In this document: positions 1 to 64,000 of the stretch, piece after piece
Numbering within the stretch: position 1 is the first letter of the stretch
How the letters are laid out: each line of letters starts with the position of its first letter
Notes under the pieces: generated by a model
Databases searched by the model: none
What the model saw: the letters and a program-made list of their open reading frames with translations, nothing else
Told to the model about the DNA's origin: nothing
Translations under genes and position numbers: made by a program
NCBI GenBank assembly: GCA_013298595.1
Contig: JAAFIG010000003.1
Span: forward strand, 124,001-188,000
Length of the DNA: 64,000 nt
Reading direction: 5' to 3'
Source of the DNA: Deinococcales bacterium
GTDB taxonomy: Bacteria; Deinococcota; Deinococci; Deinococcales; JAAFIG01

Positions 1-1
1 G

Positions 2-343
2 TGGCAGCGGACATTAGCCAATCCTGCCATTACGGTCTTTGTGGCTGAAGTCGCGGGTAGTATTGTTGGTTTTTGTAGTTTGGCGGTGCGCGGACGGGAA
101 GCCAATTTGTTTACGTTGTACTTGTTACAAGCACAGCAAGGATTAGGGTTAGGTAAGGCATTATGGGTAGCCGCACTCGAGTATGCTCGAGCACAAAAGG
201 CGAAGGAGCTTTCCTTATGGGTTCTCGAGGGTAATCCAACTCGGGGGTTCTATCAGCATATGGGTGGGGTGCTTGATGATTCACGCACAGAAACCATTGG
301 TGGTACGGATTTGCTCGAGGTTTCGTATTTGTTTGAACTTTAA
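2..343 (+). CDS. GNAT-family N-acetyltransferase, 5'-truncated by the window edge
   Basis: The frame is open from base 2 to a stop at 341-343, so the gene enters from outside the window; an internal GTG at 41 is not needed as a start. The visible 113 residues contain the acetyl-CoA binding motif A of GNAT enzymes (QQGLGLGKAL), preceded by a hydrophobic strand and followed by the helix and WVLEGNPTRGFYQHMG segment typical of motif B. It would transfer an acetyl group from acetyl-CoA to an amine; the substrate cannot be read from sequence. It lies 80 nt upstream of cimA in the same direction. Confidence 0.85.
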   Translation, partial: WQRTLANPAITVFVAEVAGSIVGFCSLAVRGREANLFTLYLLQAQQGLGLGKALWVAALEYARAQKAKELSLWVLEGNPTRGFYQHMGGVLDDSRTETIGGTDLLEVSYLFEL

Positions 344-423
344 GGTTCAATATCTGAAAACTTGGTAGACTGCGTACTCTTGAGCAGTAGGCTCGAGATT
401 TCCCTTGAAAGGAGGGATGTTGA

Positions 424-2031
424 ATGCTTTCAAATCAGGAAAAGGTGGCGTTAGCAATTTATGATTGTACACTGCGCGATGGTACGCAAGGCGAGGGCTT
501 TAACCTCTCCTTGGAGGATAAACTCGAGATTGCTAAGGCGTTAGATCGTTTTGGGATGCACTACATCGAAGGTGGCTGGCCTGGTTCTAACCCTAAGGAT
601 GCACGTTTTTTTGAAGCCATGAAAAGTGTCAAACTCGAGCGGGCAAAATTGGCTGCCTTTAGTTTCACAAGGCAAAGCCATATTGTGCATTGCGAAGATG
701 ATGCGAATTTACGTTCGCTGACCGAAGCTGAAACCCCTGTCATTACCTTGGTGGCAAAAACTTGGGATAAACACGCCATTCATGCGTTAGGTGTAACCCT
801 CGAGCAAAACTTAGCCATGATTCGGGATACAGTCAAGTATTACAAGAACCTTGGGCGCGAAGTGATTTTTGATGCTGAACTGGCTTTTTTGGGTTTTCGC
901 CATAACCCCGCCTATGCCCTCGAGGTATTGCGAACAGCGGCTGGTGAAGGTGCAGATTGCTTAGTGCTATGCGATACCCTTGGCGATGTGATGCCCGAAG
1001 AAGTGACAAAATATGTGACCCAAAGCCTCGAGTTAGGTGTGCCCGTAGGAATCCATACCCATAACGATCTCGAGATGGCAGTAGCAAATGCGTTGGTGGC
1101 TGTACGCAGTGGTGCCACCCAAGTTCAAGGCACAGTCAATGGTGTTGGTGAACGCGTTGGCAATATGAACTTGATGACGTTTATTGGTTTGATGCAAGCC
1201 AAACTAGGAATAAATTGCGTGCCTGATTTAACAAAATTAACTGAACTCTCGAGGTTTGTAGATGCCAGAGCGAACCGTACTCCACAAAATAATCAAGCTT
1301 TGGTTGGCTCGAGTGCCTTTGCCCATAAAGGTGGAATGCACGCCAGCGCCGTTGCCAAAGACCCAAGTCTATACGAGCATATGCAGCCCGAGAGCATTGG
1401 TAATCATCGGCGTATTCTGATGTCCGATTTATCTGGACGAAGCAATTTAGTTGCCACTGCCAAACAATACGGTGTGGAATTAAGTGGCAAAGACCCAGCT
1501 GTTGCCCAAGCTGTGATTAAACTCAAAGAACTCGAGGATGAAGGTTTTACCTTTGAAGGCGCTGATGCCAGTGTTTTAATGCTGTTGCGTCAAGCCAAAG
1601 GCGAACCCGAATTTTTTAAGGTATCGGTTTTTAGAGCACAAATAGATAGTTTTGATGGTTTTGAAACCGAAGCCGAAGCCAGCGTGCAAGTCTTTGTAGG
1701 CGATACTCGAGAACATGCTGCTGCCTTAGGTGATGGACCTGTCAATGCGCTCGATAAGGCTTTACGTGTCGCCCTCGAGCGGCACTACCCAGCTTTACAA
1801 GATGTCGAATTACTCGATTACAAAATGCGGGTACTCGAGGGTTCGCAAGGCACAGCGGCTCGAGTGCGGGTACTCATTACCTTTGGTGATGGTCAGAGTC
1901 AATGGACAACGGTTGGGGCTGGAGTCAACAGCATCAAAGCCTCGTTTATTGCATTGTGCGATGGTTTATCGTTTAAGTTAGCTCGAGATGGTGTGCCAGC
2001 TCTTGAACCAGCACTTGCACAGGTATCGTAG
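424..2031 (+). CDS. cimA: (R)-citramalate synthase (LeuA-like)
   Basis: 535 residues of the alpha-isopropylmalate synthase/homocitrate synthase family, closest in architecture to the citramalate synthase subgroup that condenses pyruvate and acetyl-CoA to citramalate, the first step of the threonine-independent isoleucine route. The N-terminal TIM barrel carries the opening motif DCTLRDGTQGEG (about residue 14) and the metal-binding HTH of GIHTHNDLEMA (about 208). The C-terminal third is the LeuA-type dimerisation/feedback domain. The start is fixed by a strong Shine-Dalgarno AGGAGG at 410-415, 8 nt before ATG. The last 59 bases overlap the convergent ygfZ gene. Choice of CimA over LeuA rests on length and motif context. 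Confidence 0.85.
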   Translation: MLSNQEKVALAIYDCTLRDGTQGEGFNLSLEDKLEIAKALDRFGMHYIEGGWPGSNPKDARFFEAMKSVKLERAKLAAFSFTRQSHIVHCEDDANLRSLTEAETPVITLVAKTWDKHAIHALGVTLEQNLAMIRDTVKYYKNLGREVIFDAELAFLGFRHNPAYALEVLRTAAGEGADCLVLCDTLGDVMPEEVTKYVTQSLELGVPVGIHTHNDLEMAVANALVAVRSGATQVQGTVNGVGERVGNMNLMTFIGLMQAKLGINCVPDLTKLTELSRFVDARANRTPQNNQALVGSSAFAHKGGMHASAVAKDPSLYEHMQPESIGNHRRILMSDLSGRSNLVATAKQYGVELSGKDPAVAQAVIKLKELEDEGFTFEGADASVLMLLRQAKGEPEFFKVSVFRAQIDSFDGFETEAEASVQVFVGDTREHAAALGDGPVNALDKALRVALERHYPALQDVELLDYKMRVLEGSQGTAARVRVLITFGDGQSQWTTVGAGVNSIKASFIALCDGLSFKLARDGVPALEPALAQVS

Positions 2032-2791
2032 CGGCAGTTAAAGCAGCCATAGGCTCGAGGTCGCGGCGGAGGACGGCTAAGGCTGTCCATGCCCTTTCAT
2101 ATGCAATCACAGCGCCAATTTGTCCAACTTCTCTGGTCTCGAGCAGCACAGGTGTACCAATTTCGACTGTTTGCCCTAATTGCACCCGTTGCAATGCGTA
2201 ACGAGTATTCCCTCGAGCCTCGAGCCTCGCCATGATCTCCTGACCGATATAACAACCTTTTCTATAAGAAACAGCTGGTTCTAAACCACATTCTTGGGGC
2301 AAAAAACCAAGAAACGCATCCGAGTGAGCATCCGGTAAACCTGCCAGAATTCGGGTCAGCTCGAGATTGGGTAACGGCTCGCTTAATACTTGAGCATCTC
2401 GAGGCAGTAAAACATCAACACCATCTGTAAAACCACGATTCACAGGCATAACCACAGCATTTTCCAGACTCGAGGTCTCCCCTACCATGTGCCACAACTG
2501 CCAATCGGAACGTAACTCGAGTTGCACATCATCAAAAATAATATAGCGCTTCAAGCGTTCAAACAAAGCTTGTTCCAGACCAGCTCGGCAAAATACCAGT
2601 AAATCATCGGTACGACGCAAAACCCGAAGATCAAATTCAATCTGACCTCGAGCATTCAAAACCAATGCCCGACACGAACCCAGCACAGGCAAACCACGAA
2701 TATCGTTAGTGGTTTGACCATGCAAAAACGCAATTCGATCAGAACCCGTTAAACGCAGCACAGCTAACTCGAGAGGCGAAGCCTGAATCAT
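1973..2791 (-). CDS. ygfZ: YgfZ/GcvT-like folate-binding protein
   Basis: 272 residues resembling the tetrahydrofolate-binding T-protein fold used in iron-sulfur cluster assembly and repair. The signature KGCYIGQEIMARLEARGN (around residue 175) contains the family's conserved cysteine, and the N-terminal FLHGQTTNDI segment is typical. The ATG at 2791 is preceded by TAAACT with a 6-nt gap, so the mRNA is probably leaderless. It converges on and overlaps cimA by 59 nt. Function is known for the family (E. coli YgfZ, human IBA57), not shown here. Confidence 0.85.
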   Translation of the reverse strand: MIQASPLELAVLRLTGSDRIAFLHGQTTNDIRGLPVLGSCRALVLNARGQIEFDLRVLRRTDDLLVFCRAGLEQALFERLKRYIIFDDVQLELRSDWQLWHMVGETSSLENAVVMPVNRGFTDGVDVLLPRDAQVLSEPLPNLELTRILAGLPDAHSDAFLGFLPQECGLEPAVSYRKGCYIGQEIMARLEARGNTRYALQRVQLGQTVEIGTPVLLETREVGQIGAVIAYERAWTALAVLRRDLEPMAALTAATIPVQVLVQELAHHLELT

Positions 2792-2845
2792 AAAAGCAGT
2801 TTACTGCGCTTAACTCGAGCAATTTGTCTTACAGAAAACTGGTGA

Positions 2846-3326
2846 TTTTTAGTCCTCTATCGCTCGAGGTTGTGTATGACGCTTGGCATGAAACGCTTGC
2901 TAATTGGTGTTGTGTTATTGTTTCAGTCCTCTATCGCTCAAGGCTGTGAATGACGCTCCACAAATAACCACATCTAAAGTGCCTTGTCCTCGGTTTCAGT
3001 CCTCTATCGCTCGAGGTCGTGTATAACGCCAGCTCGAGTGATACAACTTGATGTACTGGATGGCAGCAGGTTTCAGTCCTCTATCGCTTGAGGCTGTGTA
3101 TGACGCTACTCGAGAAAATCGCAGCTACAGGCGGTATTGCTGAGTTTCAGTCCTCTATCGCTCGAGGCAGTGTATGACGCCGAGAGTGCGGGGTTCCCAG
3201 CGTGTTACACGCCAAAGTTTCAGTCCTCTATCGCTCGAGGTTGTGTGTGACGCTCAGGATCAAGCAATAGAAGTCGCCCAAATTGTGTGGTTTCAGTCCT
3301 CTATCGCTCGAGGTTGTGTGTAACGC
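2846..3326 (-). CRISPR. CRISPR array, 7 repeats of 37 nt and 6 spacers
   Basis: Repeats start at 2846, 2920, 2993, 3070, 3144, 3217 and 3290; spacers are 36-40 nt. On the minus strand each repeat ends GGACTGAAAC, the canonical 3' end whose last 8 nt would form the crRNA 5' handle, so transcription is predicted on the minus strand. The repeat at 2846-2882 has lost that terminus (five T on the plus strand), marking it as the distal, trailer end. The conserved half (18 bp) is identical in six repeats while the other half varies. CCTC and GAGG can form the repeat stem. The consensus contains CTCGAG, altered to CTCAAG at 2938 and CTTGAG at 3088. No cas gene is in the window, so subtype is unassigned. 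Confidence 0.95.
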
Positions 3327-3519
3327 ATCGTTCCAAATGGCATTGTTTTGTTTTTCTATTCAACTGTCAAGGATCACGCACCTCGCACCAGACGCGGTTT
3401 CATTGTACAACTTTTTTGGTTTCGCAAATCTATTGGGTTTTGCTAGGGCAAAGTCATTCTCGAGCCTTCAAAAACATTTGTACAAAACTTTGTCATTTGC
3501 ATTCAAAGCATTGGTTTAA
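3327..3519 (-). promoter_or_regulatory. Candidate CRISPR leader
   Basis: This 193-nt stretch between the predicted leader-proximal repeat and the corA stop has no credible gene and is rich in T/A runs (for example around 3345-3360 and 3410-3420). Its position follows from the minus-strand orientation of the repeats. I could not pick out a specific promoter. Confidence 0.4.
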
Positions 3520-4518
3520 TTACCACCATTTACGCCATTTGAAATACGCGCCAAACAAAGCAGCTGCTAATCCAAACATTGCCCAAGCAAAAGTGTACCC
3601 CCAAGGTTGCTCGAGTTCTGGCATAAATTTGTAATTCATTCCCCAGACACCTGCTAGAAAGGTTAGGGGTAAGAAGATACTGCTCATGGTGGTGAGGGTT
3701 TTCATCACTTCGTTCATACGGTTACTTTGTACGCTCAGGTGCACATCGAGTAAGCTCGAGAGGACATCTCGGCTCGAGTCTAATCCGTCGTAAATACGAG
3801 TTAAGTGGTCGCCTACATCGCGTAAGTACATGGCGGCATTGGGTTCTAAGGCTGTGACGTGTCTGGAGAATTGGGCGATGGCTTCGCGTGAACCGCTGAC
3901 TAAACGCCGTGCCGAAATCATGGTGTGTTTAATGGCAAAGACTTCAGTAAAAAATTGACTGGTGTTGACCACTCGAGGTGAGAATACGCGTTCTTCGAGT
4001 TCGTCGGTGCGTAATTCGAGTTCGTCTAAGAAGGTAAAGAATGTATCTGCGCCTTTATCAAGTAAAGCGTAGAGTACGTCTACGACTTTGATGTTGCTGC
4101 GTTTTTCAAATTCGTTCCAAACACCTTCGAGGTACGTGACAGGTTCATTGCGAATGGTTAGTAATGTCTCGAGTTCAGGAAACCAGAAAATACTGATTCG
4201 TTCGGTGCGGTCGGTCACATCTTCAGGTTCGGCTAGGGTGCGAAATATCAGGAATAAATGCTCGTTATAGGCTTCAAATTTACTCCAATGCCCTATTTCT
4301 AAGGCATCTTCGAGGGCTAAGGCATTTAAGGTAAAATGGGTTTTAAGTTGCTCGAGGTCTGCTTTTGATGGTGTTTCAGCATCTATCCAAACCCGTTTTT
4401 GACGAATGCTTTGAATATCGTGACACTGCTCGAGGCATTTGATGCGAATGCCTGGATGCTCGAGCAGTTGGGGGTGTTTAGAAGTCATAAGTTTGGGAAC
4501 TGTAGTGGTGTGCCTCAC
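3520..4518 (-). CDS. corA: CorA-type Mg2+/Co2+ transporter
   Basis: 332 residues with a long soluble N-terminal domain and two C-terminal membrane helices separated by WGMNY, the GMN selectivity signature of CorA channels, followed by an acidic periplasmic loop (KFMPELEQ) and a basic tail (KWRKWW). It imports divalent cations, mainly magnesium, as a pentamer. The gene starts 10 nt after the dnaJ stop in the same direction and is probably co-transcribed. The start is uncertain: GTG at 4518 or ATG at 4488; neither has a clear Shine-Dalgarno. Confidence 0.9.
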   Translation of the reverse strand: MRHTTTVPKLMTSKHPQLLEHPGIRIKCLEQCHDIQSIRQKRVWIDAETPSKADLEQLKTHFTLNALALEDALEIGHWSKFEAYNEHLFLIFRTLAEPEDVTDRTERISIFWFPELETLLTIRNEPVTYLEGVWNEFEKRSNIKVVDVLYALLDKGADTFFTFLDELELRTDELEERVFSPRVVNTSQFFTEVFAIKHTMISARRLVSGSREAIAQFSRHVTALEPNAAMYLRDVGDHLTRIYDGLDSSRDVLSSLLDVHLSVQSNRMNEVMKTLTTMSSIFLPLTFLAGVWGMNYKFMPELEQPWGYTFAWAMFGLAAALFGAYFKWRKWW

Positions 4519-4528
4519 TCTAAATCTA

Positions 4529-5662
4529 TCATTCTCCGCGAATAGCTTTGCCTATTTTACTAAGAAAACCTTCGGGTGGGGCGATAAATTCACCTGTTTC
4601 TTTGGCGTATTCCTCGAGTAATTCCCGAGCGCGTTTGCTGAGTTTTTTGGGAATTTCCACAGCAACTGTAACAATTAAATCGCCTTCACCTCGAGCTTGT
4701 AAACGTGGCATGCCTTTGTTGCGGATCCGAATGATGTCGTTGGGTTGTACACCAGCGGCTATTTCGAGACTATGCGCGCCATCTAAGGTTGGAATTTCAA
4801 GTTTTGTACCGATGGTTGCTTGGGCTAAACCAATATGGACTGTGTGGTGCAGGTCATCACCATCTCGAGTCAGGTGTGGGTGCGGCTCGAGTTCTAAAAA
4901 GACGTATAAATCGCCGCTTGGTCCGCCGAACATGCCTTGGTTGCCTTGTCCTGCGACGCGTAAACGATAACCACCATCTATGCCTTTGGGTAAGGTAACT
5001 GTGACTTTTTCGGGTTTGATGGTTCGTCCGCGTCCGTGGCATTGTTTGCATGGTTCAGGGTTGCTTTCGCCTGTGCCTTTACAAGTTGGGCAAGGCGCAG
5101 CTGTCATAAAGTTCCCTAGGATGGTGCGTTGCGTCTGACGAACTTGTCCTGCTCCACCACAAGTTTGACAAGTTTGTAAGCCTTTGCCGCCTGGTTCGGC
5201 TCGAGAACCATTGCATTTATCGCAAGCATTGAGTTTATCTATTTCAACTTCGATATCTGCACCACTACGGGCTTGCTCGAGATTGATTTTGACTTCGACT
5301 TGTAAATCTTCGCCTCTGGCTGCGCGTTTACCGCCGCTACGTCCTGCTCCTCGAGCTTGTCCGAAGACATCGCCACCACCAAAGACACTATTGAACAAGT
5401 CGAATAAATCGCCCATACCGCCAGCTCCAGCAAAGCCACCTTCGTAGCCGCCACCAACTTTACCAAATTGGTCGTATTGAGCGCGTTTTTCTGGGTCGGA
5501 TAGCGCTCCGTAAGCTTCGTTGATGGATTTGAACTTTTCCTCGGCTTCTTTGTTACCAGGGTTTTTATCTGGATGGTATTTGAGTGCTAAAGCACGGTAG
5601 GCACGTTTAATTTCATCAGCATCGGCGCTTTTAGAAACGCCTAATAATTCGTAATAATCCAT
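4529..5662 (-). CDS. dnaJ: Chaperone protein DnaJ
   Basis: 377 residues with complete DnaJ architecture: N-terminal J domain with HPD (YHPDKNPGN, about residue 31), Gly/Phe-rich linker, a zinc domain with four CxxCxGxG-type motifs ([31 protein letters not shown]-like CKQCHGRG) and the C-terminal substrate-binding domain. It stimulates DnaK ATPase and delivers unfolded clients. dnaK and grpE are not adjacent; corA follows 10 nt downstream. A GAGAG Shine-Dalgarno lies 7 nt before ATG. Length is normal for the family. Confidence 0.95.
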
Positions 5663-5723
5663 AATTTACTCTCGCGTTGCGGCGAACCTCTGCGCTAATC
5701 TTACACGACAACACTCAAGGTTT

Positions 5724-7373
5724 CTATTGGATTTGTGTCACGTCTGGCGATACACTGCTTTCGACATGCTCGAGTGGGGCTGGACGTTGTTTAATTAAAC
5801 GTACCCGAGATGGTTTGACTTCATTGGATTGTCGCATGTGTTCACGGGCTTTAACAGCATCTCGCTCGAGGAACCAAACAGCTAAACCAAAATGCAGTAA
5901 TTTCTTGCCTTTGAGTGGTGTTAATGTGGCAGCGGTACTGCGTACCACAGGTAGAGTAAAAACAAATTCGCGTTCGTTAGTAATCACACTAGGTAGTAAC
6001 TCGGCAAACCAACCAGACTCGAGTAATTGTTCCATATCGGCACTGACATCGCGGTTTAGAATCGCTTCCAATGCGCCTGTAAACACACCATCGGCAAATA
6101 AGGCAGCAGCTGATAAGGTTTCTCGAGCCGAACGAGGCAATTCATCTAAGCGTTCGAGTACCGCTCGAGCGGCTGTTTCTGGCAATTTGGTTGAATCGGC
6201 TTGGAAATTGGGTTCAAGACTGGCTCGCCCTAATCGCTCGAGTAACCAAGGATTGCCTGCTGAAACTTCAAGCCAACGTTGAATTAAACTAACGGGTTGT
6301 GGACCACCTAGGCTTTCGAGTAAAGCTCGGGTTTCAATAAACCCTAACCCCGTTAAACGCAGTGTTTCTAGTCCAACTGCTGGGCTGCACCGATGATGCA
6401 AAATCAGGGTGGCTTTGCCACGCAAAGCTGTTAACTGAGCTAATGCAGCGGCTTCAAATTGCTCAGCGTGCTCTAAAACCACCACCAAAGATTCATGGGC
6501 AGTTAAACGCTCTAAGGTGCTGGTTTCAAGTTTGACTTGTTTAGGATGCAAAATAATACAACGTGCTTCCTGCTCGAGACGCAAGGTAAATTCTTGTAAT
6601 AACCGGCTTTTACCACTGCCTGGCGCTCCAACAATTTGGGCTTGAATGGGTTGGTTGTGTTGTTGCGCTCGGCTCCACAAATTCTCGAGCCAACGCAATT
6701 CGTTACGCCGCCCTTGAAATGGGGTTGGAGTCGAATCGGACTTTGCCAAACGAAAATTCATCAACCGATACGGACCGCGTTCCTCGGTGTAATCTCGAAT
6801 AATACGGCTGTGTGCCACCATAAACTGAGCATGTTGCCGTGTGCTTTCTCGAGTTCGTTCCGAAACCAACACCTCACCAGGTTCGGCAGCACTACTTAAC
6901 CGCCGTGACAAATTAACCACATTACCAAACAAGGTTAATTCCTTACCAACCCAACCTGTTGTTGCATCATCAGTGTCCACACCCGCCCGACCCTCGAGTT
7001 CTAAACCAACTCGAGTACCATAATTTTCAATAGCCGTTAAGCAAGCTTTAGCAGCTTTTAATGCCCGCAAAGAATCATCGGAATGGGTTTTGGTTAAACC
7101 AAAAGCTGCCAGTACAGCATCACCTTGGAATTGCACCACATGACCATCCAAAGCTTCGATTTCACCTGCCAGCACGGTTAAAATCTCGCCCATTAAATCA
7201 AAGTATTCTTCGCTGCCATAACTTTTTGCCAGTTTTGTACTAGCAACCAAATCCACAAACAGCACTGCCACTCGGCGTTGCTCTTGAACTCGTTCAGGCA
7301 TCAAAATTGCGCCACAAGCTGGGCAAAAACGCCAACCTGCTTTGATTGGTTCGGCACAACTTAGACACTGCAT
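5724..7373 (-). CDS. Zinc-ribbon, class III nucleotidyl cyclase and P-loop ATPase protein
   Basis: 549 residues. The N-terminus holds a zinc ribbon (CLSC at 3-6, CPAC at 17-20). A class III adenylate/guanylate cyclase domain follows (about 30-190) with metal aspartates in VLFVDLVAST and QFQGDAVLAAFG and the transition-state Asn/Arg segment GNVVNLSRRLSSAA, so catalysis is plausible. A P-loop NTPase follows with Walker A GAPGSGKS (about 245) and a Walker-B-like SLVVVLEHAE. Proteins of this layout usually carry a long TPR tail and exceed 1,000 residues; this one stops after the ATPase. Its signal input and product (cAMP or cGMP) are not readable. It is separated from dnaJ by 61 nt and transcribed the same way. 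Confidence 0.85.
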   Translation of the reverse strand: MQCLSCAEPIKAGWRFCPACGAILMPERVQEQRRVAVLFVDLVASTKLAKSYGSEEYFDLMGEILTVLAGEIEALDGHVVQFQGDAVLAAFGLTKTHSDDSLRALKAAKACLTAIENYGTRVGLELEGRAGVDTDDATTGWVGKELTLFGNVVNLSRRLSSAAEPGEVLVSERTRESTRQHAQFMVAHSRIIRDYTEERGPYRLMNFRLAKSDSTPTPFQGRRNELRWLENLWSRAQQHNQPIQAQIVGAPGSGKSRLLQEFTLRLEQEARCIILHPKQVKLETSTLERLTAHESLVVVLEHAEQFEAAALAQLTALRGKATLILHHRCSPAVGLETLRLTGLGFIETRALLESLGGPQPVSLIQRWLEVSAGNPWLLERLGRASLEPNFQADSTKLPETAARAVLERLDELPRSARETLSAAALFADGVFTGALEAILNRDVSADMEQLLESGWFAELLPSVITNEREFVFTLPVVRSTAATLTPLKGKKLLHFGLAVWFLERDAVKAREHMRQSNEVKPSRVRLIKQRPAPLEHVESSVSPDVTQIQ

Positions 7374-7430
7374 CCTAACCAGATTGTGACACAGAAATGA
7401 GAAAAAAGAAATGCCTGAAAGAAAAACGCT

Positions 7431-7865
7431 TCATACCCGACGCAGAAAAAAACCATGCACAGGCTCGAGACTCGAGAACTTCACCCAATCCCCAACTCGA
7501 ATATTGCGCCATGAATCATCCAACACACCTAGTAGCAAAGTGGCTTTTGCCTCCACAACCACATGATTGGCTTCGACATGCTTAACTAAACCAACACCCT
7601 CGAGTTTAGAAACCCCCAGCACTACCAGCTCAGCCTCGGCAACCTCAGATTTTTCTATCGAATCCAGCATTGGATTCACAATCATCAAAGCATCACCTGA
7701 CCGAGCCGCATATGGACCAAGCCGATCAAACATATAAACCACTCGCCCACCCACTCGCACCTCGAGTAATGGTGAAGCCTCAATTTGCGGATATAAAAAC
7801 ACTTTCGTGGCAAACGCTTTGAAACGTTCCACAAATTCTTCAGTTGAATGCTCGAGAACTGGCAT
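7431..7865 (-). CDS. Conserved-looking protein of unknown function
   Basis: 144 residues from ATG at 7865. An in-frame upstream start at 7895 exists, but TAGACT at 7873-7878 sits 7 nt before this ATG, matching the leaderless pattern of the window. The protein is soluble, with alternating beta-strand-like segments (LEVRVGGRVVYMF, EAELVVLGVSKLEGVGLV, ATLLLGVLDD) and a short C-terminal basic end. CTCGAG hexamers fall in frame as Leu-Glu, supporting coding. I recognise no family. It diverges from the acyl-CoA dehydrogenase gene. Confidence 0.65.
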   Translation of the reverse strand: MPVLEHSTEEFVERFKAFATKVFLYPQIEASPLLEVRVGGRVVYMFDRLGPYAARSGDALMIVNPMLDSIEKSEVAEAELVVLGVSKLEGVGLVKHVEANHVVVEAKATLLLGVLDDSWRNIRVGDWVKFSSLEPVHGFFLRRV

Positions 7866-22857: not shown

Positions 22858-25491
22858 TTACGCAAATTGCGCTAAAACTTTTTGTAATCTTTCTAACTGC
22901 ATTCCAAAATCCTCAATCCGACGGCGCTCCTCGAACAACACATCTTCAGGGGCGTTCTTCACAAAGTTCTCGTTGCTTAATTTGCCTTTGGCTTGCTGCA
23001 CTTGCTTCTCTAACTCAACCACTTTTTTCTTGCCTCGAGTCACGTACTCGCTTGTATCAATCAGTCCCTCGAGAGCCAGTAACACCTCGAGTCCGGGCGC
23101 AACTGAGTTAATAATTTTACCGCTCACACTGCCCAGTTCGGCTTTGGCAAGCCCTGTAAACGTCTCGAGGTTCTTGCTAACTGCACCCGCGTTGATGCCA
23201 TCCACAGCCACAGTTAAAACTTGCATTGGAGGAATCATCAATTCGTTCCGCAAGACCCGCACGGCAGTAATCGCATTTTTAACTTTCTCAAATTCCTCGA
23301 GAGAAGCGTTGTCCACCGCAAATTCATCAGCTCGAGGGAATGGTTCAAAAGCAAGTTGCTGATGTTTAGGGTTCAGTGCTGCATAAATTTCTGAGGTAAT
23401 AAACGGCATGAATGGATGCAGCAATTTCAGAATCGCCTCGAGAACCCGTTTAATTGTGGCTTGCGTGACTGGATTCTGACTTTTCAAAGCTGGTTTCGCC
23501 GCTTCGATGTACCAATCACAAAAATCATCCCACGTAAAACTGTAAATCGTGCGAATTGCCGCACCAAGATCATACGCCTCGAGTTGCGCTGTGGCAGTGG
23601 CAATGGTTTCAGAAAGCCTCGAGACAATCCAAGCATCCGCGAGGGTCACGCCAAAACTAGCGGGTGCAGCACTTAAACTCATGCCATTTTCCGAATGTCC
23701 AGTCTCGAGATTCATCATGGCGAACCGAGAAGCATTCCAGAGTTTATTGGCAAAATTCCGCCCCATTTCGTAACGGCGCTCATCGTGCTTGATGTCCTGC
23801 CCACCCGTGGACAAATACGCCCATGCAAAACGACAACCGTCCACACCGTACTTATCCATTAACTCGAGCGGATCAATACCATTGTTCTTGGATTTCGACA
23901 TTTTCTGACCCTTGGCATCCAAGTACAACCCATGCAGCATCACAGTATGAAATGGCGCTTGACCCGTAAATTCAAAACCTGACATTTGCATCCGAGCCAC
24001 CCAGAAAAACAGGATGTCATAACCTGTCACCAGAACATCATTTGGGTAGAACTTAGCTAAATCCTCGGTTTGGTCGGGGTAACCCATCGTCGAAAAATTC
24101 CACAACGCGCTCGAGAACCACGTATCGAACACATCAGGGTCTCGAGTCAAAGTCAAGTGCGCGTAACGCGGGTCTTGATCGCAATCAAGATCAGGATTCT
24201 CGAGATCAGGCACGTACACTTTACCTTCGGCATCGTACCAAGCAGGAATTTGATGCCCCCACCAAAGTTGCCGCCCAATTGCCCATTCACGAATATTCTC
24301 GAGCCAATCCCGATTGACTTTGGTGTACCGTTCAGGCACAATTTTTATTCTGCCATCCTCGAGCGCATCCAACACTTGCTTGGCGGGCTTCTCCATTTTG
24401 CACCACCACTGCGTCATGACCATTGGCTCAACAGGTTCTTTGGTACGCTCCGAAATCCCCATGCTGACCTTATAATCCTTCGCCTCGAGTAATGCGCCAC
24501 TCGCCTCGAGCGCCTTCACCACAGCTTTACGAGCCGCGAAACGCTCCATACCACGGAATTCCTCAGGCACAAGATCAGACACCAACTTGGCGAACTTATC
24601 AATCACACTGGGCGTAGCAAGGTTATGCCGCAAACCAATTTCAAAATCGGTTGGGTCATGAGCAGGCGTGATTTTCAGGCAACCCGTGCCAAAATCCATT
24701 TCAACACTCGAGTCGGCAATAATTGGAATCAGACGATTAGTCAATGGGATACGCACTTTTTTACCCACCATGCTCGAGAAACGCGTATCCTCTGGATGCA
24801 CTGCCACAGCCTGATCGGCAAAAATGGTTTCAGGTCGCACCGTTGCCACGTTCATTGCGCCACTGCCATCCTCGAGTTGATACGCCAAGGTATACATTTT
24901 GCCCTGACGATCCTCACGGTCAACTTCGAGATCGGACAACACGGTTTGCGCCACAGGGTCCCAATTAACAATTTTTTCACCACGGTACGCCATGCCTTTA
25001 GCCACGTACTCAATAAAAGTCCGACGCACCGCTTTGGACAACCCAGCATCCATCGTAAAACGTTCTCGAGACCAATCGGCAGACACACCAAGGCGAGTTA
25101 ATTGCTTCAGAATCGTGCCGCCATTCTTTTCCTTGAATGCCCAAACTCGATCTAAGAATTTCTCACGTCCAAGGTCGGACTTATGCAGTCCCTCGAGTGC
25201 CAATTCTTTTTCGACCAGCACTTGGGTACTAATACCCGCATGATCCGTACCAGGCAAGTACAACGCCTCGAAACCCGCCATGCGCTTAAAACGAGTCAGG
25301 ACATCAATAATAGTATTATCCAAAGCATGACCAAGGTGGAGACTACCTGTCACATTCGGCGGCGGGATGACAATAGTAAAAGCGGGTTTACTCGAGGTGG
25401 CATCGGCACGAAACGTACCCGGTTTAGCCCAGAGTTCAGCCCAAGAAGATTCGACAGACGATGGTTCGTATTTAGTGGGTAATTCATTCAT
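22858..25491 (-). CDS. valS: Valyl-tRNA synthetase
   Basis: 877 residues, full length for ValRS. The class I signatures are intact: HLGHALDN in PPPNVTGSLHLGHA (about residue 45) and KMSKS in GQKMSKSKNNG (about 530). The editing domain (CP1) lies between, the anticodon-binding domain follows, and a C-terminal coiled coil rich in Lys/Glu/Gln (VELEKQVQQAKGKL) is typical of ValRS. It charges tRNA-Val. AAGGAA lies 6 nt before ATG. A T-box leader lies about 2.1 kb upstream on the same strand, separated by two other genes. Confidence 0.96.
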   Translation of the reverse strand: MNELPTKYEPSSVESSWAELWAKPGTFRADATSSKPAFTIVIPPPNVTGSLHLGHALDNTIIDVLTRFKRMAGFEALYLPGTDHAGISTQVLVEKELALEGLHKSDLGREKFLDRVWAFKEKNGGTILKQLTRLGVSADWSRERFTMDAGLSKAVRRTFIEYVAKGMAYRGEKIVNWDPVAQTVLSDLEVDREDRQGKMYTLAYQLEDGSGAMNVATVRPETIFADQAVAVHPEDTRFSSMVGKKVRIPLTNRLIPIIADSSVEMDFGTGCLKITPAHDPTDFEIGLRHNLATPSVIDKFAKLVSDLVPEEFRGMERFAARKAVVKALEASGALLEAKDYKVSMGISERTKEPVEPMVMTQWWCKMEKPAKQVLDALEDGRIKIVPERYTKVNRDWLENIREWAIGRQLWWGHQIPAWYDAEGKVYVPDLENPDLDCDQDPRYAHLTLTRDPDVFDTWFSSALWNFSTMGYPDQTEDLAKFYPNDVLVTGYDILFFWVARMQMSGFEFTGQAPFHTVMLHGLYLDAKGQKMSKSKNNGIDPLELMDKYGVDGCRFAWAYLSTGGQDIKHDERRYEMGRNFANKLWNASRFAMMNLETGHSENGMSLSAAPASFGVTLADAWIVSRLSETIATATAQLEAYDLGAAIRTIYSFTWDDFCDWYIEAAKPALKSQNPVTQATIKRVLEAILKLLHPFMPFITSEIYAALNPKHQQLAFEPFPRADEFAVDNASLEEFEKVKNAITAVRVLRNELMIPPMQVLTVAVDGINAGAVSKNLETFTGLAKAELGSVSGKIINSVAPGLEVLLALEGLIDTSEYVTRGKKKVVELEKQVQQAKGKLSNENFVKNAPEDVLFEERRRIEDFGMQLERLQKVLAQFA

Positions 25492-25506
25492 AGTTGATTC
25501 CTTGAG

Positions 25507-26571
25507 TCATATGTTGGAGTGTTTATAGATAACGGAATTGCCAAGCAAATTGATCATATCTTGCCTTTCAAGTTGTATTTTAGAAAGATAATCAGATTTT
25601 TTTTCAAAGTAAACAGATACCTGTAAAACTCTCAAATTAAAACGTTCTTCTGAAAATAATTTTTCATAAATTAAATGAAAATTTTTAGCTATTTTTTGAT
25701 ATATTTCAATCATCTTTTCAGGTTGAAGATTACAATTATTTACTGCTCTGTAAAATAAATGTGACTGTAGATTATTTTCACGACCAAAAGCTGGTGGATA
25801 ATTATCATTATTATTTGGATCATAAATCCAACTAGTGTCTTCAAAAAAGATAAGTGATATCAATTCTATTAAAATGGATAAAAATTCAACTCTATTTTCA
25901 TTTGAGTCTATTATCCAAATATTCGGGTGTTCTTTGTTCAACTGCTGCAAGTAAATCAAAATTAAATCAATAGCAATAGAATCTGCATCAATTTCAATCA
26001 TTTCTTTTACTTTTTTCGAGGCGTTCGTTTTGATAAATTTTTCGGATATAGTTTTAGTGTCGCTTAGAAGTTCAAAATGCCCTCTACGAATATGAGCCAA
26101 TTCGTGTGAAATCACATAAAAAAAAGAAATCTTGTGAAGTAAATCCGCGTATTCCCTTCTTTTTGGGCATTTTGGTAATTGAATTTCACTTTTAATTTGT
26201 GACAAGTCAATAGGGATTTCATTACAAAATGGATCTAAATCTTCTTCAAGTTCAATATTTCCAATATGGGGTAGAAATAAATTGTTCCCTAATAAAATAT
26301 AAGAAAGTTTTTCAAGGGTAGTATAAACTCCTTTTGTAAATGAAATGATTTCTATTTTGCCTTCTTTATAACAATCTGCGTAAAAATTATCATCAAGAGA
26401 TATTAAAATAGTGGGTTTCTCTAAATTTACATCATTAAGAAATTCACAAAAGTCAATAAAATTATCTAGTTCGTTTGCGGTTGATTCCACAGTACCGCCA
26501 ATTTCACTTAACACTTCTTTGAATGGAAAATGCCGTGAGTAATACTGATCAATAATCGAATTTTGGCTCAT
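25507..26571 (-). CDS. AT-rich protein with HELAH zinc-metallopeptidase motif
   Basis: 354 residues. VISHELAHIRRGHFELL (about residues 153-169) provides an HExxH zinc site, and EIDADSIAID (about 191-200) could give the third ligand, a layout like IrrE/ImmA, M48-like or Lit-type peptidases. No signal peptide or membrane helix is seen. Base composition is clearly more AT-rich than its neighbours and the gene has no CTCGAG in over 1 kb, where about ten would be expected, so recent acquisition is likely. AAAGGA lies 5-6 nt before ATG. It sits in line between the Nudix gene and valS. A role in phage defence or mobile-element control is possible but not shown. Confidence 0.75.
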   Translation of the reverse strand: MSQNSIIDQYYSRHFPFKEVLSEIGGTVESTANELDNFIDFCEFLNDVNLEKPTILISLDDNFYADCYKEGKIEIISFTKGVYTTLEKLSYILLGNNLFLPHIGNIELEEDLDPFCNEIPIDLSQIKSEIQLPKCPKRREYADLLHKISFFYVISHELAHIRRGHFELLSDTKTISEKFIKTNASKKVKEMIEIDADSIAIDLILIYLQQLNKEHPNIWIIDSNENRVEFLSILIELISLIFFEDTSWIYDPNNNDNYPPAFGRENNLQSHLFYRAVNNCNLQPEKMIEIYQKIAKNFHLIYEKLFSEERFNLRVLQVSVYFEKKSDYLSKIQLERQDMINLLGNSVIYKHSNI

Positions 26572-26618
26572 AAATCCTTTTTGTTTCTCGAGGCTCGAGC
26601 TTGGGGCTTTAGCTGGTT

Positions 26619-26638
26619 GGGCGAGGCAAGTCTTGCCC
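26619..26638. repeat. Dispersed palindrome, imperfect copy (GGGCGAGGCAAGTCTTGCCC)
   Basis: The arms match the 22831 copy except for inner changes, and the copy is again followed by CCTACGGCTT. It lies between the Nudix stop and the AT-rich gene start, possibly at the junction of the imported segment. Confidence 0.65.
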
Positions 26639-27857: not shown

Positions 27858-27863
27858 CCCTCG

Positions 27864-27891: not shown

Positions 27892-27985
27892 GCTGGCAAG
27901 GTGGCTTAGTATTTCTCGAGCTTAGGTAGAAAAGTGAAGTTTTTGTACTCGGTACATTACTTTATTCATATTGTCAATTACAGCT

Positions 27986-44813: not shown

Positions 44814-47800
44814 CTAAGCCAACCATTCCTGAACACTCGAGACTGCTAAACTCGAGCCGCTTACTTTCTCGAGTGCACTGACCAGCCACTGTGCCGCTTC
44901 CAAAGTGGTGTAGATCGGTGTGCCATGCTCGAGCGCTCGGCGCGATAATCTCGAGGCGGTTAGGTCAATCAGTAAATCTGGAATTGGTGTGCTGTCGTTG
45001 CTCGAGGCGATGTGCTGGACACTGTAACCTAATTTCTCAAATCTTTGCTCGAGGGCTGTGTTTTGTATGCCAACCCATAGGACTTTCCCCTCGAGTGGCA
45101 GTTTGACATTTGCACCTAACTGAGCGCGGTAGTACGCGAGGAATGGGTCTGCGTCTATGCCCATGCTTTCGCCTGTGCTTTTCATTTCTGGTCCGAGGAC
45201 TGGAATCACATCTTTGAATTTGAGGAATGGTAGGTGGACTTCTTTGACGCTGTAATGGGTTGGCACGATACTCTCGGTAAAACCGATTTGCTCGAGGGTT
45301 TGTCCAACGGCAATGCGGGCAGCATATTTGGCGAGTGGATGCCCAATGGCTTTAGACACAAATGGCACAGTGCGGCTGGCTCGAGGGTTAGCTTCGAGAA
45401 TGTAGAGTAAATTGTTATGCACAGCGTATTGCACGTTCATTAAGCCTCGCACTCCAATCTCGAGGGCAAGGCGTTTAGTGCTGGTGTGGACTTCCTCGAG
45501 CAATTCGGCACTTAGATGTACAGGTGGCAAAATACAGGCGCTATCGCCGCTGTGGATACCAGCAGCTTCGATGTGTTCCATAACACCTGCTATCACGGCG
45601 CTTGTGCCATCGCAGAGGCAGTCCACATCAAGTTCTAGGGCATTCTCGAGGAATGTATCTAATAAAATGCTTGGGTTGCCTTCTACGGCTGCGTAGACTT
45701 CGCGTAGGTAGGTCTCGAGTTCGTTTTCGGAGTAGACGGTTCGCATGGCACGACCACCCAGCACGTAACTAGGGCGTGCCATTAGTGGGAATCCAAGTTC
45801 CCTTGCCAGTCTCAGGGCTTCGCCCGGATTGTTTGCCACTGCACCTTTGGGTTGGCGAATCCCCAGTTTATCGCAGAGGGTATTAAACTCGAGCCTGTCC
45901 TCGGCTGTGTGGATAGCTGTGGGTGATGTGCCAATGATCGGTGCGCCTGCTGCCTCGAGGGCTTTGGCGAGTTTCAGTGGGGTTTGACCGCCAAGTTGGA
46001 CGATGACTCCAATAGGTTTTTCGTGTTCGACGATGTTCATCACATCTTCAAAGGTTAAAGGCTCGAAGTACAAACGGTCGGCAGTGTCGTAATCGGTGGA
46101 AACTGTTTCGGGATTGCTATTGACCATAATGGTTTCGTAACCAAGGTCGCGCAATGCCCAAACCGCGTGTACCGTGGCGTAATCGAATTCCACGCCTTGT
46201 CCGATTCGGTTAGGTCCACTACCAAGAATCATCACTTTTTGCTTATCGGTGGGGCGAACTTCGTCTTCCCATTCAAAACTCGAGTAATGGTATGGCGTGT
46301 GAGCTTGGAATTCGGCAGCGCAAGTATCCACGGTTTTATAGACGGGCAGGCACTTAGCAGCTTTGCGTAAAGCTCGAATCTCGAGTTCGGTTTTTTGGCA
46401 TAATTCGCCGATACGGGCATCGGATAACCCTAAACGTTTGATTTCACGCCACGTTTCGTATTTCCATGTATCCAGTGCGCCAAGGGTTACGAGTTCTTTT
46501 TCGACTTCGATGATCTCGAGCAGTTGATGCAAGAACCATGGGTCTATAGCAGTTTTTTTGTGTAATTCGGCAACGCTGACATCGCGGCGCAGTAACTCGA
46601 GCACCGCTAAAAAACGCTTGGGATTGGCTTCAAGCAATGCCTCAAGTTGCGTGAGGTTCATGGTTTCAAAACCACCACGAATATCAGACTCGAGTGAACG
46701 CAGGGCTTTCATAAAGGATTCTTTGAAGGTGCGTCCGATTGCCATGACTTCGCCTACTGAACGCATTTGGGTATTGAGGCGCTCGGAGGTTCCTGGGAAT
46801 TTTTCAAAAGCAAAACGCGGAATTTTTGTTACCACGTAATCAATACTGGGTTCAAAAGAAGCTGGTGTGACCTTAGTAATGTCGTTAGGCAATTCGTCTA
46901 AGTAATAACCAACAGCTAAAAGCGCAGCAATTTTCGCAATAGGGAAACCTGTGGCTTTGGAAGCCAAAGCGCTACTTCTCGAGACTCGAGGGTTCATTTC
47001 GATTACGACAACTCGACCATCGGCAGGGTTGATGGCATATTGGATGTTGCTGCCGCCTGTATCCACACCGATTTCGCGGATCACAGCGAGGCTGGCATCA
47101 CGCAGGCGTTGGTATTCTTTATCGGATAAGGTTTGTTGTGGCGCAACCGTGATGCTATCGCCTGTGTGTACTCCCATTGGGTCGAAATTTTCGATACTGG
47201 TAATAATTAAAGCAGTGTCGTTGGTGTCGCGCATCACCTCGAGTTCAAATTCTTTCCAACCCAGCACACTTTCTTCGATTAAGACCGTGCCAACTGGAGA
47301 AAGATGCAAACCACTGGCAACAATTTGCTTAAATTCAATTTCATCGTAGGCAATACCGCCACCTGTACCGCCCAAGGTAAAACTCGGGCGAATAATAGCT
47401 GGATAACCGACTTCTTTAACAAAACTCAGCGCTTCCTCGAGTGAACTTACCATTTGTCCTTTGGCAACATCCAAACCAATTTTTTTCATGGCTTGCGCGA
47501 ATTTCTGTCGATCCTCGCCTTTTTCGATGGCTTCTTTATTCGCGCCGATCAGTTCCACACCGTACTTTGCCAGAATGCCCGCATCTGCCAATGCCAAACT
47601 CAGATTTAACCCTGTTTGTCCACCCAATGTTGGCAGAATTGCACTTGGGCGTTCTTTTTCAATCACTTTCTCGAGAAATTCGATGGTTAATGGCTCGAGG
47701 TAGGTGGCATCGGCTAGTTCAGGGTCGGTCATGATGGTGGCAGGGTTAGAGTTGACCAGAATCACTCGGAAACCCGCGTTTTTCAGGGCTTTAACTGCTT

Positions 47801-47894
47801 GAGTACCGCTGTAATCAAACTCAGCAGCTTGACCAATTTGGATAGGACCTGAACCGATAATCAGGATGGTGTGTAAATCAGTGCGTTTTGGCAT
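44814..47894 (-). CDS. carB: Carbamoyl-phosphate synthase large subunit
   Basis: 1,026 residues (slightly short of the usual 1,070) with two duplicated ATP-grasp halves. The paired openings [20 protein letters not shown] (residue 10) and [19 protein letters not shown] (about 540) and the ATP-grasp pieces [13 protein letters not shown] and [13 protein letters not shown] are intact. The C-terminal allosteric (MGS-like) domain appears shortened to about 100 residues. It makes carbamoyl phosphate for arginine and pyrimidines, with CarA encoded elsewhere. GAGG lies 6 nt before ATG. Confidence 0.96.
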
Positions 47895-56556: not shown

Positions 56557-58059
56557 TTAGTGCTTAAAGTGTCTCGAGCCAGTAAAAATCATGCTGATGC
56601 CAAGCTCATCGCAGGCAGCAATCACTTCAGCATCGCGTTTAGCACCACCTGGTTGCAAGATTGCCATCACACCAACACTGGCAGCTAAGCGCACCACATC
56701 ATCGAAAGGAAAAAATGCTTCAGATGCCAACACCGATCCTTTGGCTTTTTCTCCTGCATTACCAATGGCACGTTCAGCAGCCCAAATTCTACTGACCGCT
56801 CCTGCCCCCAAACCAACAGTAACCGCATTTTTGACCAGCACCACATTATTACTACGAGCATGTTTGGTGATCGCAAACGCAAACTCGAGGTCTTGCCATT
56901 CTTGTGGGGTTGGTTGGCGTTTGGTTACCACTTCTGGGCAAAGATCAGACCACACTCGAGTATCGCGGTTTTGTACCAGAAAACCACCACTGATGGCTTT
57001 GTACTCGAGATTCGAGTATGCACTGTTACCTGCTTTGAGAACGCGCAAATCTGGTTTCTTTGCTGCAAACCACTCAAGTGCATCTGCACTGATTTCAGGG
57101 GCGATGAGAACCTCGAGGAACGTGCCTTTGGTACTGGTAGCAACTTCAAGTGTTACTGGGCGGTTCAAAGCGACCACACCACCGAAAACCGATAGCATAT
57201 CGGCATCTCGAGCACGTTCCCATGCCAGTTGAGCGGTATCTGCCAACGCGACACCACACGGGTTAGCATGTTTGACTGCCACACAAGCAGGACTCGAGAA
57301 TTCAGAAACCAATAACCACGCTGCGTCGACATCGGCGTAATTGTTAAAGCCCATCTCTTTACCCGATAACACTTGAGCATCGAGCACCGCGCCTTGTTCT
57401 GCTCCAAAACGGTACAGAGCCGCTTGCTGATGCGGATTCTCGCCATAACGCAAAGATTTAATACGGCTTAACTCGAGTGGTTGCTGAACATTAAACGATT
57501 CACTCGAGAGATACCCACTGATGGCTGCATCGTAACTGCTGGTATGAGCAAAAGCTTTACGTGCTAAACCTTGCCTAAATTCAAGACTAGCGGTTTTGAT
57601 ATGCTCGAGCACACCAGCATAATCGGCTGGGTCAACCACAATCAGCACATTGGCAAAATTCTTGGCACTGGCTCGAATCATCGCAGGACCACCAATGTCA
57701 ATATTTTCGATGGCATCATCAAAAGTCACATTGGCTTTAGCAATGGTTTCCCGAAATGGATATAAATTGACACACACCAAATCAAAGCGTTCAATTCCCA
57801 TCGTCTCGAGTGTGGCGTTATGCTCTGGCGTATTCTTAGCCAAAATGCCTGCATGGATTTTAGGATGCAAGGTCTTTACTCGTCCCTCGAGAATTTCAGG
57901 GAAACCTGTCACATCCGAAATATAGGTCACAGCTAAACCTGCATCCTTTAGGGTTTGGAACGTACCACCTGTCGAAACAAGACTAAAACCCTGCCCAATC
58001 AAACCAGACGCAAATTCAACCAAACCGCTTTTATCACTGACACTCAGTAAGGCTCTCAT
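56557..58059 (-). CDS. purH: Bifunctional AICAR formyltransferase/IMP cyclohydrolase
   Basis: 500 residues from ATG at 58059 (a TTG at 58077 lies within the Shine-Dalgarno and is rejected). GAGGAG is 10 nt upstream. The N-terminal IMP cyclohydrolase/MGS domain starts ALLSVSDKSGLVEFA with STGGTF, and the C-terminal AICAR transformylase includes LRYGENPHQQAALYR and KHANPCGVA. It completes purine synthesis to IMP. A ZTP riboswitch in its leader links expression to ZMP/ZTP, the substrate that accumulates when 10-formyl-THF is short. Confidence 0.96.
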   Translation of the reverse strand: MRALLSVSDKSGLVEFASGLIGQGFSLVSTGGTFQTLKDAGLAVTYISDVTGFPEILEGRVKTLHPKIHAGILAKNTPEHNATLETMGIERFDLVCVNLYPFRETIAKANVTFDDAIENIDIGGPAMIRASAKNFANVLIVVDPADYAGVLEHIKTASLEFRQGLARKAFAHTSSYDAAISGYLSSESFNVQQPLELSRIKSLRYGENPHQQAALYRFGAEQGAVLDAQVLSGKEMGFNNYADVDAAWLLVSEFSSPACVAVKHANPCGVALADTAQLAWERARDADMLSVFGGVVALNRPVTLEVATSTKGTFLEVLIAPEISADALEWFAAKKPDLRVLKAGNSAYSNLEYKAISGGFLVQNRDTRVWSDLCPEVVTKRQPTPQEWQDLEFAFAITKHARSNNVVLVKNAVTVGLGAGAVSRIWAAERAIGNAGEKAKGSVLASEAFFPFDDVVRLAASVGVMAILQPGGAKRDAEVIAACDELGISMIFTGSRHFKH

Positions 58060-58104
58060 TAGCAAATCACTCCTCAAGAACCAGCCGAACCAAACAGCTA
58101 ATCC

Positions 58105-58182
58105 GATAGCGACCCAGGCGAGCGATCTATTGAGCGTTGCAGCTTCCCCACGGGCTTTCCGTGTGAATTCGCCAGTTACTAC
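58105..58182 (-). ncRNA. ZTP (pfl) riboswitch controlling purH
   Basis: Minus strand: AACTGGCG (near 58177), a CACGG/CCGTG hairpin followed by GGGGAAGC (58142-58163), and CGCCTGGGTCGC (58109-58120) match the two conserved halves of the ZTP aptamer. Downstream there is no U-run before the GAGGAG of purH, so translational control is more likely. The aptamer lies 46 nt upstream of the purH start codon. Confidence 0.88.
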
Positions 58183-58314
58183 AACTTAGCTAGTCTACTC
58201 GAGACTCAGCAGTACGCTTGACCCACAACTCAAAAATTTCCTCACCTTTTCCCTGCGTCCTTTATCTTTTCTCCCACATCCAATCCACCCACTCGCCACG
58301 TACACCCCAGTGAA

Positions 58315-62800: not shown

Positions 62801-62811
62801 TTGCACTGCAA
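62801..62811. promoter_or_regulatory. Possible LysR binding site
   Basis: TTGCA-C-TGCAA is a perfect small palindrome in the 93-nt divergent space between the propeller gene and lysR, of the T-N11-A type. The match is short. Confidence 0.4.
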
Positions 62812-62851
62812 TTAACAGTTTTTGCCTGTAAATAGGATTAAGCTGCTGGCT

Positions 62852-63760
62852 ATGGAATTGCGTCAGTTGCGTTACTTTGTGGCAGTTGCCGATGAACAGA
62901 ATTTTACTCGAGCTGCCCAACGTGTCTTTTTAGCACAACAAAGTCTGTCCGAGCAAATTCAAAAACTTGAGTCAAGGCTCGGTGTGACCTTGTTTGAGCG
63001 CAGCACCCGCCATGTCACCCTCACCGAAGCTGGTGCAGTGCTATTCGAGGAAGCCAAAAGCATTTTGGCAATGTCAGACAGAGCCATTCACAAAGTTCAA
63101 CGCTTGGGGCAGCTAGGAAAACTCGAGCTTGTGTTCACTGCACCTGCCATGTACACAGTGCTGCCCAATCTGCTTAGAACATTTGCTGCAGCCTATCCCA
63201 AGGTACAAATCAGCCAAACCGAAATCTGCACTGCCCACCAAATCGAAGCCTTGCTTTCGCACCGTGCCGATGTTGGTTTTCTGCACGCTCTGATGCCACA
63301 CCCCCAACTGGCGCTGCTCGAGTTGACACGTGAACCATTGGTGCTGGCACTGCCCGAAGCTCACCCACTAGTAACAAAACCCATGCTCGAGCCACAAGAT
63401 TTGGATGGTTTGCCACTAATTCTGGCACCACGCAGCCAAGCCCCGCGTTTGTTCGCCCTAACCGAACACTATTTTGCAACTTCAAAACTCGAGTTTGTGC
63501 TGGCTGCCGAAGCTCAACCCCAAAGTGCCCAACTCGCTATGGTCGAACGTGGTGTTGGCGCAGCCTTAGTAACACAAAGCGTTTTGTTAAACACACACCA
63601 TAAGGTTATAGGACGACAGATACAAGGTTTAGATTTTTCATTACCACTTCAAATAGCTACTCGAGTTGGCGATACCAACGCTTTAACACAGGCAATGCTA
63701 TTACTGGCAAAAAGGCATCTCGAGCAGCAAAGCATACTACCTTTTTCAAACCAACGCTAA
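62852..63760 (+). CDS. LysR-family transcriptional regulator
   Basis: 302 residues from ATG at 62852. N-terminal MELRQLRYFVAVADEQNFTR and AAQRVFLAQQSLSEQIQKLE form the winged helix; the C-terminal periplasmic-binding-like domain senses a small molecule. The divergent propeller gene is the probable regulated partner. Length is normal. Confidence 0.92.
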   Translation: MELRQLRYFVAVADEQNFTRAAQRVFLAQQSLSEQIQKLESRLGVTLFERSTRHVTLTEAGAVLFEEAKSILAMSDRAIHKVQRLGQLGKLELVFTAPAMYTVLPNLLRTFAAAYPKVQISQTEICTAHQIEALLSHRADVGFLHALMPHPQLALLELTREPLVLALPEAHPLVTKPMLEPQDLDGLPLILAPRSQAPRLFALTEHYFATSKLEFVLAAEAQPQSAQLAMVERGVGAALVTQSVLLNTHHKVIGRQIQGLDFSLPLQIATRVGDTNALTQAMLLLAKRHLEQQSILPFSNQR

Positions 63761-64000
63761 ACTAAAACGCTACAAAAAGATGATAAGACAACCAATTTTT
63801 AGTTCGGTATCAAAACACGCCACTGCTTAATTTTTTGTACACCAAAGAGTTTTCTCGAAAAGGGTTTTACGAGTCAAAAAGCTGATTTTGCGACTTTAGG
63901 TATTTTCTATGGTCGTGGTATCAGTATTGCTACTCCGATTCATACAATGGCTACAAATTCTCATTGGGTGCGTTAAAACGCTTGGCATATTCAAGAAAAA
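63761..64000 (+). other. Right-edge region with a possible gene remnant
   Basis: The frame from about 63815 to TAA at 63974 reads SFLEKGFTSQKADFATLGIF and continues YGRGISIATPIHTMA, which looks protein-like but lacks a start and is not recognised with certainty. It carries no CTCGAG. Confidence 0.25.

Follow-up and report, generated by a model that had tools for sequence, protein, structure and literature searches.

Dense iteration of the palindrome CTCGAG in a Deinococcales genome and its relatives

Why does a single palindromic hexamer, CTCGAG, recur through the whole of a 64,000-bp stretch of DNA from a Deinococcales bacterium? An exact count in this stretch (the window, positions 1..64000) gave 425 sites, a mean of one per 150 bp, with a range of 5-23 per 2 kb; for the window as a whole, base composition predicts 12.9 sites and dinucleotide frequencies 6.9. 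The original prediction, which described iteration along the whole window against an expectation of about one site per 5 kb, was therefore confirmed, and its manual figure of 19 sites for the first 2,040 bases proved exact. The features of the window to which we refer are the following:

2849..3325, plus strand: degenerate CRISPR-like array in which 7 copies of the repeat lie ~73 bp apart
22858..25491, minus strand: valS, valine--tRNA ligase (NCBIfam), used to name relatives
25391..26592, no strand: longest gap free of CTCGAG, with 1,196 bp between its two flanking sites
44814..47894, minus strand: carB, carbamoyl-phosphate synthase large subunit (NCBIfam), with 27 CTCGAG sites
56557-58077, minus strand: purH, downstream of the ZMP/ZTP riboswitch
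58105-58189, minus strand: ZMP/ZTP riboswitch, upstream of purH

As had been predicted, the word lies within the CRISPR-like repeat: it was present inside 5 of the 7 copies, and the other two read CTCAAG and CTTGAG, both transition variants. A T-box leader carrying CTCGAG had also been proposed, but no T-box was found in the window at the Rfam gathering score; only a tRNA and the ZTP riboswitch reached it, and neither of them contains CTCGAG. As to the terminators in which the word had also been placed, few of the close non-coding CTCGAG pairs were flanked by T-runs. Across genomes, carB carries 22-33 sites in those of the same family as the window (f1) and in G005 and G006, and 15 in G004.

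A DNA-level excess

The genome from which the window derives contains 27,159 copies of CTCGAG in 4.58 Mb, versus 15 of the reversed control GAGCTC; in the family there is one copy per ~170 bp, roughly 30- to 70-fold the chance frequency. When 455 kb of the genome were compared with a second-order Markov model built after masking CTCGAG, the word was 72-fold in excess, while no other palindromic hexamer exceeded 1.75-fold. This comparison, a k-mer check of the kind asked for with the original prediction, ruled out chance, or a similar excess of many related hexamers, as the source. The enriched word is exactly the palindromic hexamer, with a weak flank preference (455 kb). Thus one palindrome greatly exceeds its expected frequency throughout the genome, whether the expectation is taken from base composition or from the Markov model.

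As a separate observation, GC-rich palindromic hexamers are nearly all avoided in this genome (CCGCGG at 0.02 and GAGCTC at 0.03 of expectation, with GGCC at 0.02). This avoidance is seen across relatives with differing sets of methyltransferases, CTCGAG being the lone strong exception.

CTCGAG had been predicted on both coding and non-coding DNA, and its density was indeed 5.84 per kb in the former and 6.09 per kb in the latter (labels that are approximate because ORFs were called mechanically); it was 6.11 per kb in the non-coding part of the 1.25 Mb of genome stretches used for the larger tests. The bias toward CTCGAG among synonymous spellings was alike in the three reading frames, with odds ratios of 24 (21-28) for Leu-Glu (frame 0), 31 (25-39) for [APST]-Arg-[DEAGV] (frame 1) and 26 (21-32) for x-Ser-[SR] (frame 2); that of the control, Glu-Leu written GAG-CTC, was near 0. 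In G007, a genome of a second family lacking the trait, the ratios were 0.7, 0.5 and 2.2, every interval spanning 1, and in a Thermus-like genome they were 13, 4.2 and 6.6, on few sites. Since coding and non-coding densities are equal and the synonymous bias is alike in all frames, codon usage does not explain the excess. The objection that codon usage or related hexamers might suffice, raised together with the original prediction, accordingly fails on the non-coding density, the three-frame bias and the Markov test, and both codon usage and amino-acid composition are ruled out by the first two of these. The only point in favor of codon usage, amino-acid composition or an assembly artefact would be the Leu-Glu enrichment described below; an artefact is further contradicted by an independently deposited metagenome-assembled genome (MAG; L266), which has 7.3 copies per kb, and by isolate genomes, in which the word is also present though less enriched, so that we regard this whole explanation as hardly credible. 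In the stretches L360-L365 of G003 the non-coding density reaches 10.9 per kb, twice that of coding DNA, in which they differ from the genome of the window.

About two thirds of the Leu-Glu pairs are spelled CTCGAG (0.68 in 455 kb; 0.66 in 1.25 Mb). In the genome of the window such pairs are found at 2.34 times their expected frequency, versus 0.95 for Glu-Leu. The ratio was 2.34 in G002 and 2.51 in G003, two other genomes of the family; it was lower in G004 (2.02), G024 (1.90) and G030 (1.59), the last of which we take to be Meiothermus ruber DSM 1279, and was 1.08 in both G007, where the word is not enriched, and the Thermus-like G051. Leu-Glu pairs encoded by CTCGAG were no less conserved between relatives than those encoded otherwise. 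Apparently, the density of CTCGAG has changed which amino-acid pairs the proteins contain; a bias acting on a DNA word thus seems able to alter the amino-acid pairs of a whole proteome.

Distribution in the order

A search with ValS gave as the nearest named genome a Deinococcales bacterium MAG, JAAFJQ010000088.1, at 92% identity, in agreement with the Deinococcota-like source that had been proposed; this MAG has 7.3 CTCGAG per kb. The next matches were Truepera, Meiothermus rufus and Calidithermus roseus. From these matches, the genome of the window can be assigned to an uncultured Deinococcales lineage.

We surveyed 111 genomes of the order, with Deinococcus represented only by 50 kb of the D. 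radiodurans plasmid MP1. GC content varies among these genomes, and the densities that follow should be read together with the odds ratios. The four genomes of the window's own family, all Deinococcales MAGs, have 5,900–6,500 CTCGAG per Mb (median 6,156), the other three holding 26,619-28,178 sites each. In the four genomes of the second family the density ranged from 297 to 7,732 per Mb, and one of them was not enriched. Genus labels in the Thermaceae-like family are inferred, partly from named ValS matches; with these labels, the medians were 2,449-3,421 per Mb for the presumed Allomeiothermus and Calidithermus, 2,127 for the presumed Meiothermus and 825 for the presumed Thermus, in which GAGCTC is equally common. 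The MP1 plasmid, with 0.16 CTCGAG per kb or 0.5 of expectation, showed no enrichment. The trait is therefore weaker in the relatives assigned to Calidithermus, Meiothermus and Allomeiothermus, and little or nothing of it is seen in Thermus and in one genome of the second family. Together, these results show that the over-representation of CTCGAG is real, acts at the level of DNA, is independent of reading frame and is clade-wide.

Some side observations accompany this distribution. In G007 (2.3 Mb) the enrichment is entirely absent, while its relatives of 1.9-3.8 Mb are enriched, which makes this genome well suited for comparison in a search for the gene responsible. Two stretches of Allomeiothermus silvanus plasmids (L433 and L436) have 1.0-1.3 sites per kb, versus ~2.5 in the presumed Allomeiothermus genomes. 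An IMG/VR viral contig stretch (L254; 9,722 bp, 64% GC) contains 57 CTCGAG and 0 GAGCTC; viral contigs with clustered CTCGAG were mostly chance matches arising from high GC. Genome size was rejected as a driver in the genus of Meiothermus size (Spearman 0.32, p 0.20).

Behavior of the sites and candidate mechanisms

The conservation of sites, a check proposed with the original prediction, was addressed by codon alignment of 24-48 stretches with each of three relatives, at fourfold-site identities near saturation (0.42, 0.36 and 0.29). For Leu-Glu, joint occupancy in the two more distant relatives was 55 versus 56.0 and 81 versus 76.7 under independence, and 100 versus 91.7 in the relative of the same genus; in frame 2 it exceeded independence throughout (22/16.0, 13/11.1 and 11/7.1). 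Odds ratios of co-occupancy between relatives reached 8.5 in one frame with few sites. Hence what prevails is turnover: the positions of CTCGAG mostly change between relatives, with joint occupancy near independence and a weak residual conservation, in the same genus and in frame 2.

Spacing was analyzed in coding DNA for permissive pairs, that is, those at which the peptides allow CTCGAG. The observed/expected co-occupancy rose with distance, starting at 0.24-0.33 for pairs less than 15 bp apart, passing through 0.55-0.67 (15-29 bp) and 0.78-0.90 (30-59 bp), and reaching 0.94-1.02 between 60 and 1,000 bp. Non-coding pairs showed little avoidance (1.07 at 6-14 bp and 0.89 at 15-29 bp); a general repulsion of sites was thus rejected, the effect being short-range and largely confined to coding DNA. 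Avoidance of hairpins in mRNA may contribute, covering a small part only: at 6-11 bp, other coding inverted repeats are mildly depleted (0.71-0.73, versus 0.14-0.22 for CTCGAG), so that hairpins are not the whole cause. Two readings of the short-range avoidance remain, a protein footprint or a cost at the coding level. No clear signal of ten-bp helical phasing was found for CTCGAG pairs. Beyond ~60 bp the sites are filled nearly independently of each other, and the flat pair correlation rules out a spacing function at the kb scale; functions that require one site per kb are disfavored, since no effect is seen beyond 60-100 bp.

In the genome of the window the single-transition variants of CTCGAG occur at about twice their Markov expectation and the transversion variants at 0.87. 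The resulting ratio, 2.39, lies above those of all 95 decoy hexamers (maximum 2.04). We read the excess of transition neighbors as standing mutations away from CTCGAG; it sits poorly with a repair enzyme for which these variants would be the substrate.

A solitary methyltransferase had been suggested as the cause, and several methyltransferase genes in five Pfam classes are in fact present in each family genome (METHYLTRANSFERASES). Even so, clustering of the PF00145, PF01555, PF07669, PF02384 and PF02086 genes gave no clear ortholog cluster across the four family genomes, whose assemblies are 91-94% complete; non-orthologous methyltransferases with a common specificity could exist in the family. 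The genome of the window encodes an HhaI-like cytosine-5 methyltransferase (L005; 74% identical to its ortholog in the same genus), a beta-class N4/N6 methyltransferase (L018), a large PglX/DrmMI-like protein (L029) and a TaqI-like adenine methyltransferase (L034), the closest solved relative of which recognizes TCGA, contained in CTCGAG.

A repair or recombination bias and a chromosome-organizing protein are both possible causes of the excess. Our preference goes to a local, per-site bias of DNA toward CTCGAG, imposed by a symmetric protein that recognizes the word and balanced by mutation, and we hold it tentatively, at somewhat below an even chance. CTCGAG is a word of the class of HIP1 (GCGATCGC) of cyanobacteria, and would be held at very high density by a bias on DNA and not on codons or proteins. 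Some factor would recognize the symmetric hexamer exactly, changes toward CTCGAG would win or changes away from it would lose, and the balance might be set by ordinary mutation, coding constraint and the short-range cost of close pairs. Most likely this factor would be an enzyme or complex acting at mismatches, which marks or binds the strand that reads CTCGAG and thereby biases the outcome; such a motif drive could be linked to methylation, repair or recombination. In favor of the local bias are the equal coding and non-coding densities, the uniform synonymous bias over the three frames, the independence of site pairs from 60 to 1,000 bp, the turnover of positions, the Leu-Glu enrichment and the excess of transition neighbors. 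A homodimeric recognizer would fit the exactness of the palindromic hexamer and its weak flank preference. Against the local bias, no recognizer was identified, and no ortholog was found across the four genomes in the five methyltransferase classes; a drive similar to VSP repair ought to leave the transition neighbors depleted, yet these are enriched, and the co-occupancy slightly above independence may imply some positional conservation rather than pure turnover. A context-free motif drive, in which a DNA-acting system converts near-matches to CTCGAG while the sites themselves are functionally unneeded and codon choice and dipeptides are reshaped, appears to us clearly less probable.

The local drive has to be weighed against explanations in which the sites do something for the cell. 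CTCGAG might be the site of an abundant, symmetric DNA-binding or nucleoid protein, each copy bringing a small benefit under weak additive selection; the uniform bias in all contexts, the exact palindromic core and the avoidance of close coding pairs on the scale of a footprint (0.24-0.33 below 15 bp, ~1 beyond 60-100 bp) agree with this, although the footprint effect is not general, as non-coding pairs are little avoided (1.07 at 6-14 bp), and no such protein was identified. We find this rather unlikely, about as much so as the context-free drive or slightly more. An equally local, additive benefit per bound site would look identical in these data, which do not tell drive and weak additive selection apart, and support for any mechanism is only moderate. 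Both uptake and methylation-directed repair rank below these. If a CTCGAG methyltransferase marked the strand for mismatch repair, sites would accumulate until most bases lay near one. In support of this idea, which was proposed for the cyanobacterial HIPs, a cognate methyltransferase is predicted in every cyanobacterial genome that contains a HIP (PMC4390886), enzymes methylating CTCGAG are known from giant viruses and Halorubrum, and the TaqI-like gene is at hand; nevertheless, accumulation in this model levels off at about one site per 1,000 bp (Elhai 2015; PMC4390886), whereas we found 5.9 per kb with no avoidance from 60 to 1,000 bp, and no methyltransferase of the five Pfam classes is common to the four family genomes. 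Methylation-directed repair is therefore improbable in our judgment.

A little more improbable still is that CTCGAG serves as a DNA uptake word, competent cells preferring DNA that carries it and recombination spreading it by molecular drive, as proposed for the uptake sequences of Haemophilus and Neisseria. The turnover of positions and the effect on the proteome fit drive by exchange, and the lower enrichment of the Allomeiothermus silvanus plasmids relative to their presumed genus is a further point for it. On the other hand, Thermus is strongly competent by nature and shows little or no enrichment. Two sites per fragment would moreover be redundant and even spacing at the fragment scale would be expected, yet the pair ratio is ~1, with no mutual avoidance, from 60 to 1,000 bp, while known uptake words lie ~1,000 bp apart (PMC7811141). 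Protection from restriction, with CTCGAG as the sole palindrome safe from the cell's own enzymes or as a self-mark in defense, would agree with the avoidance of almost all GC-rich palindromic hexamers; it is very unlikely, since safety predicts a normal frequency instead of a 72-fold excess, and the avoided words partly differ between relatives while CTCGAG is constant.

CTCGAG among known iterated words

A literature search, outside which most subscription papers lay, found no report of CTCGAG iteration in Deinococcota, and the word is absent from the text of Elhai 2015 (PMC4390886). CTCGAG is denser than the HIPs in that paper, except possibly rCCGGy.

Restriction-site avoidance likewise leaves palindromic hexamers strongly off expectation, with the opposite sign: here CTCGAG alone is strongly enriched and most other GC-rich palindromes are depleted. 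DNA uptake sequences are longer and non-palindromic. Those of Pasteurellaceae and Neisseriaceae resemble CTCGAG as genome-wide iterated words that turn over and touch the proteome, but they lie ~1 kb apart, while CTCGAG recurs every 170 bp with no spacing effect at the kb scale. The alternate HIPs (GGCGCC, rCCGGy, GCsGC, TCGATCGA and GGGATCCC) are also short palindromes used as iterated words; unlike CTCGAG, which spans a clade, they are sporadic in single cyanobacteria, usually at ~1,000-2,000 per Mb, each paired with a predicted cognate methyltransferase (PMC4390886).

The parallel with HIP1, drawn in the original prediction, holds: both are palindromes vastly over-represented across a genome and a clade, in coding and non-coding DNA (for CTCGAG, with no effect of codon usage) and inside a CRISPR repeat. 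HIP1, to our knowledge, has lacked an explanation since 1995. The differences are that CTCGAG is a 6-mer and HIP1 an 8-mer, that it belongs to the phylum Deinococcota, that no common methyltransferase was found in the four genomes in five Pfam classes, and that it reaches ~5,900 per Mb, against 300-2,700 per Mb for HIP1 in cyanobacteria (Elhai 2015; PMC4390886). A second, denser and clade-wide HIP-like case outside the cyanobacteria allows each HIP model to be tested independently, and the group that shows it includes culturable bacteria (Meiothermus, Calidithermus and Allomeiothermus). The lack of mutual avoidance of CTCGAG sites beyond ~60 bp already disfavors those HIP models in which accumulation levels off at about one site per kb.
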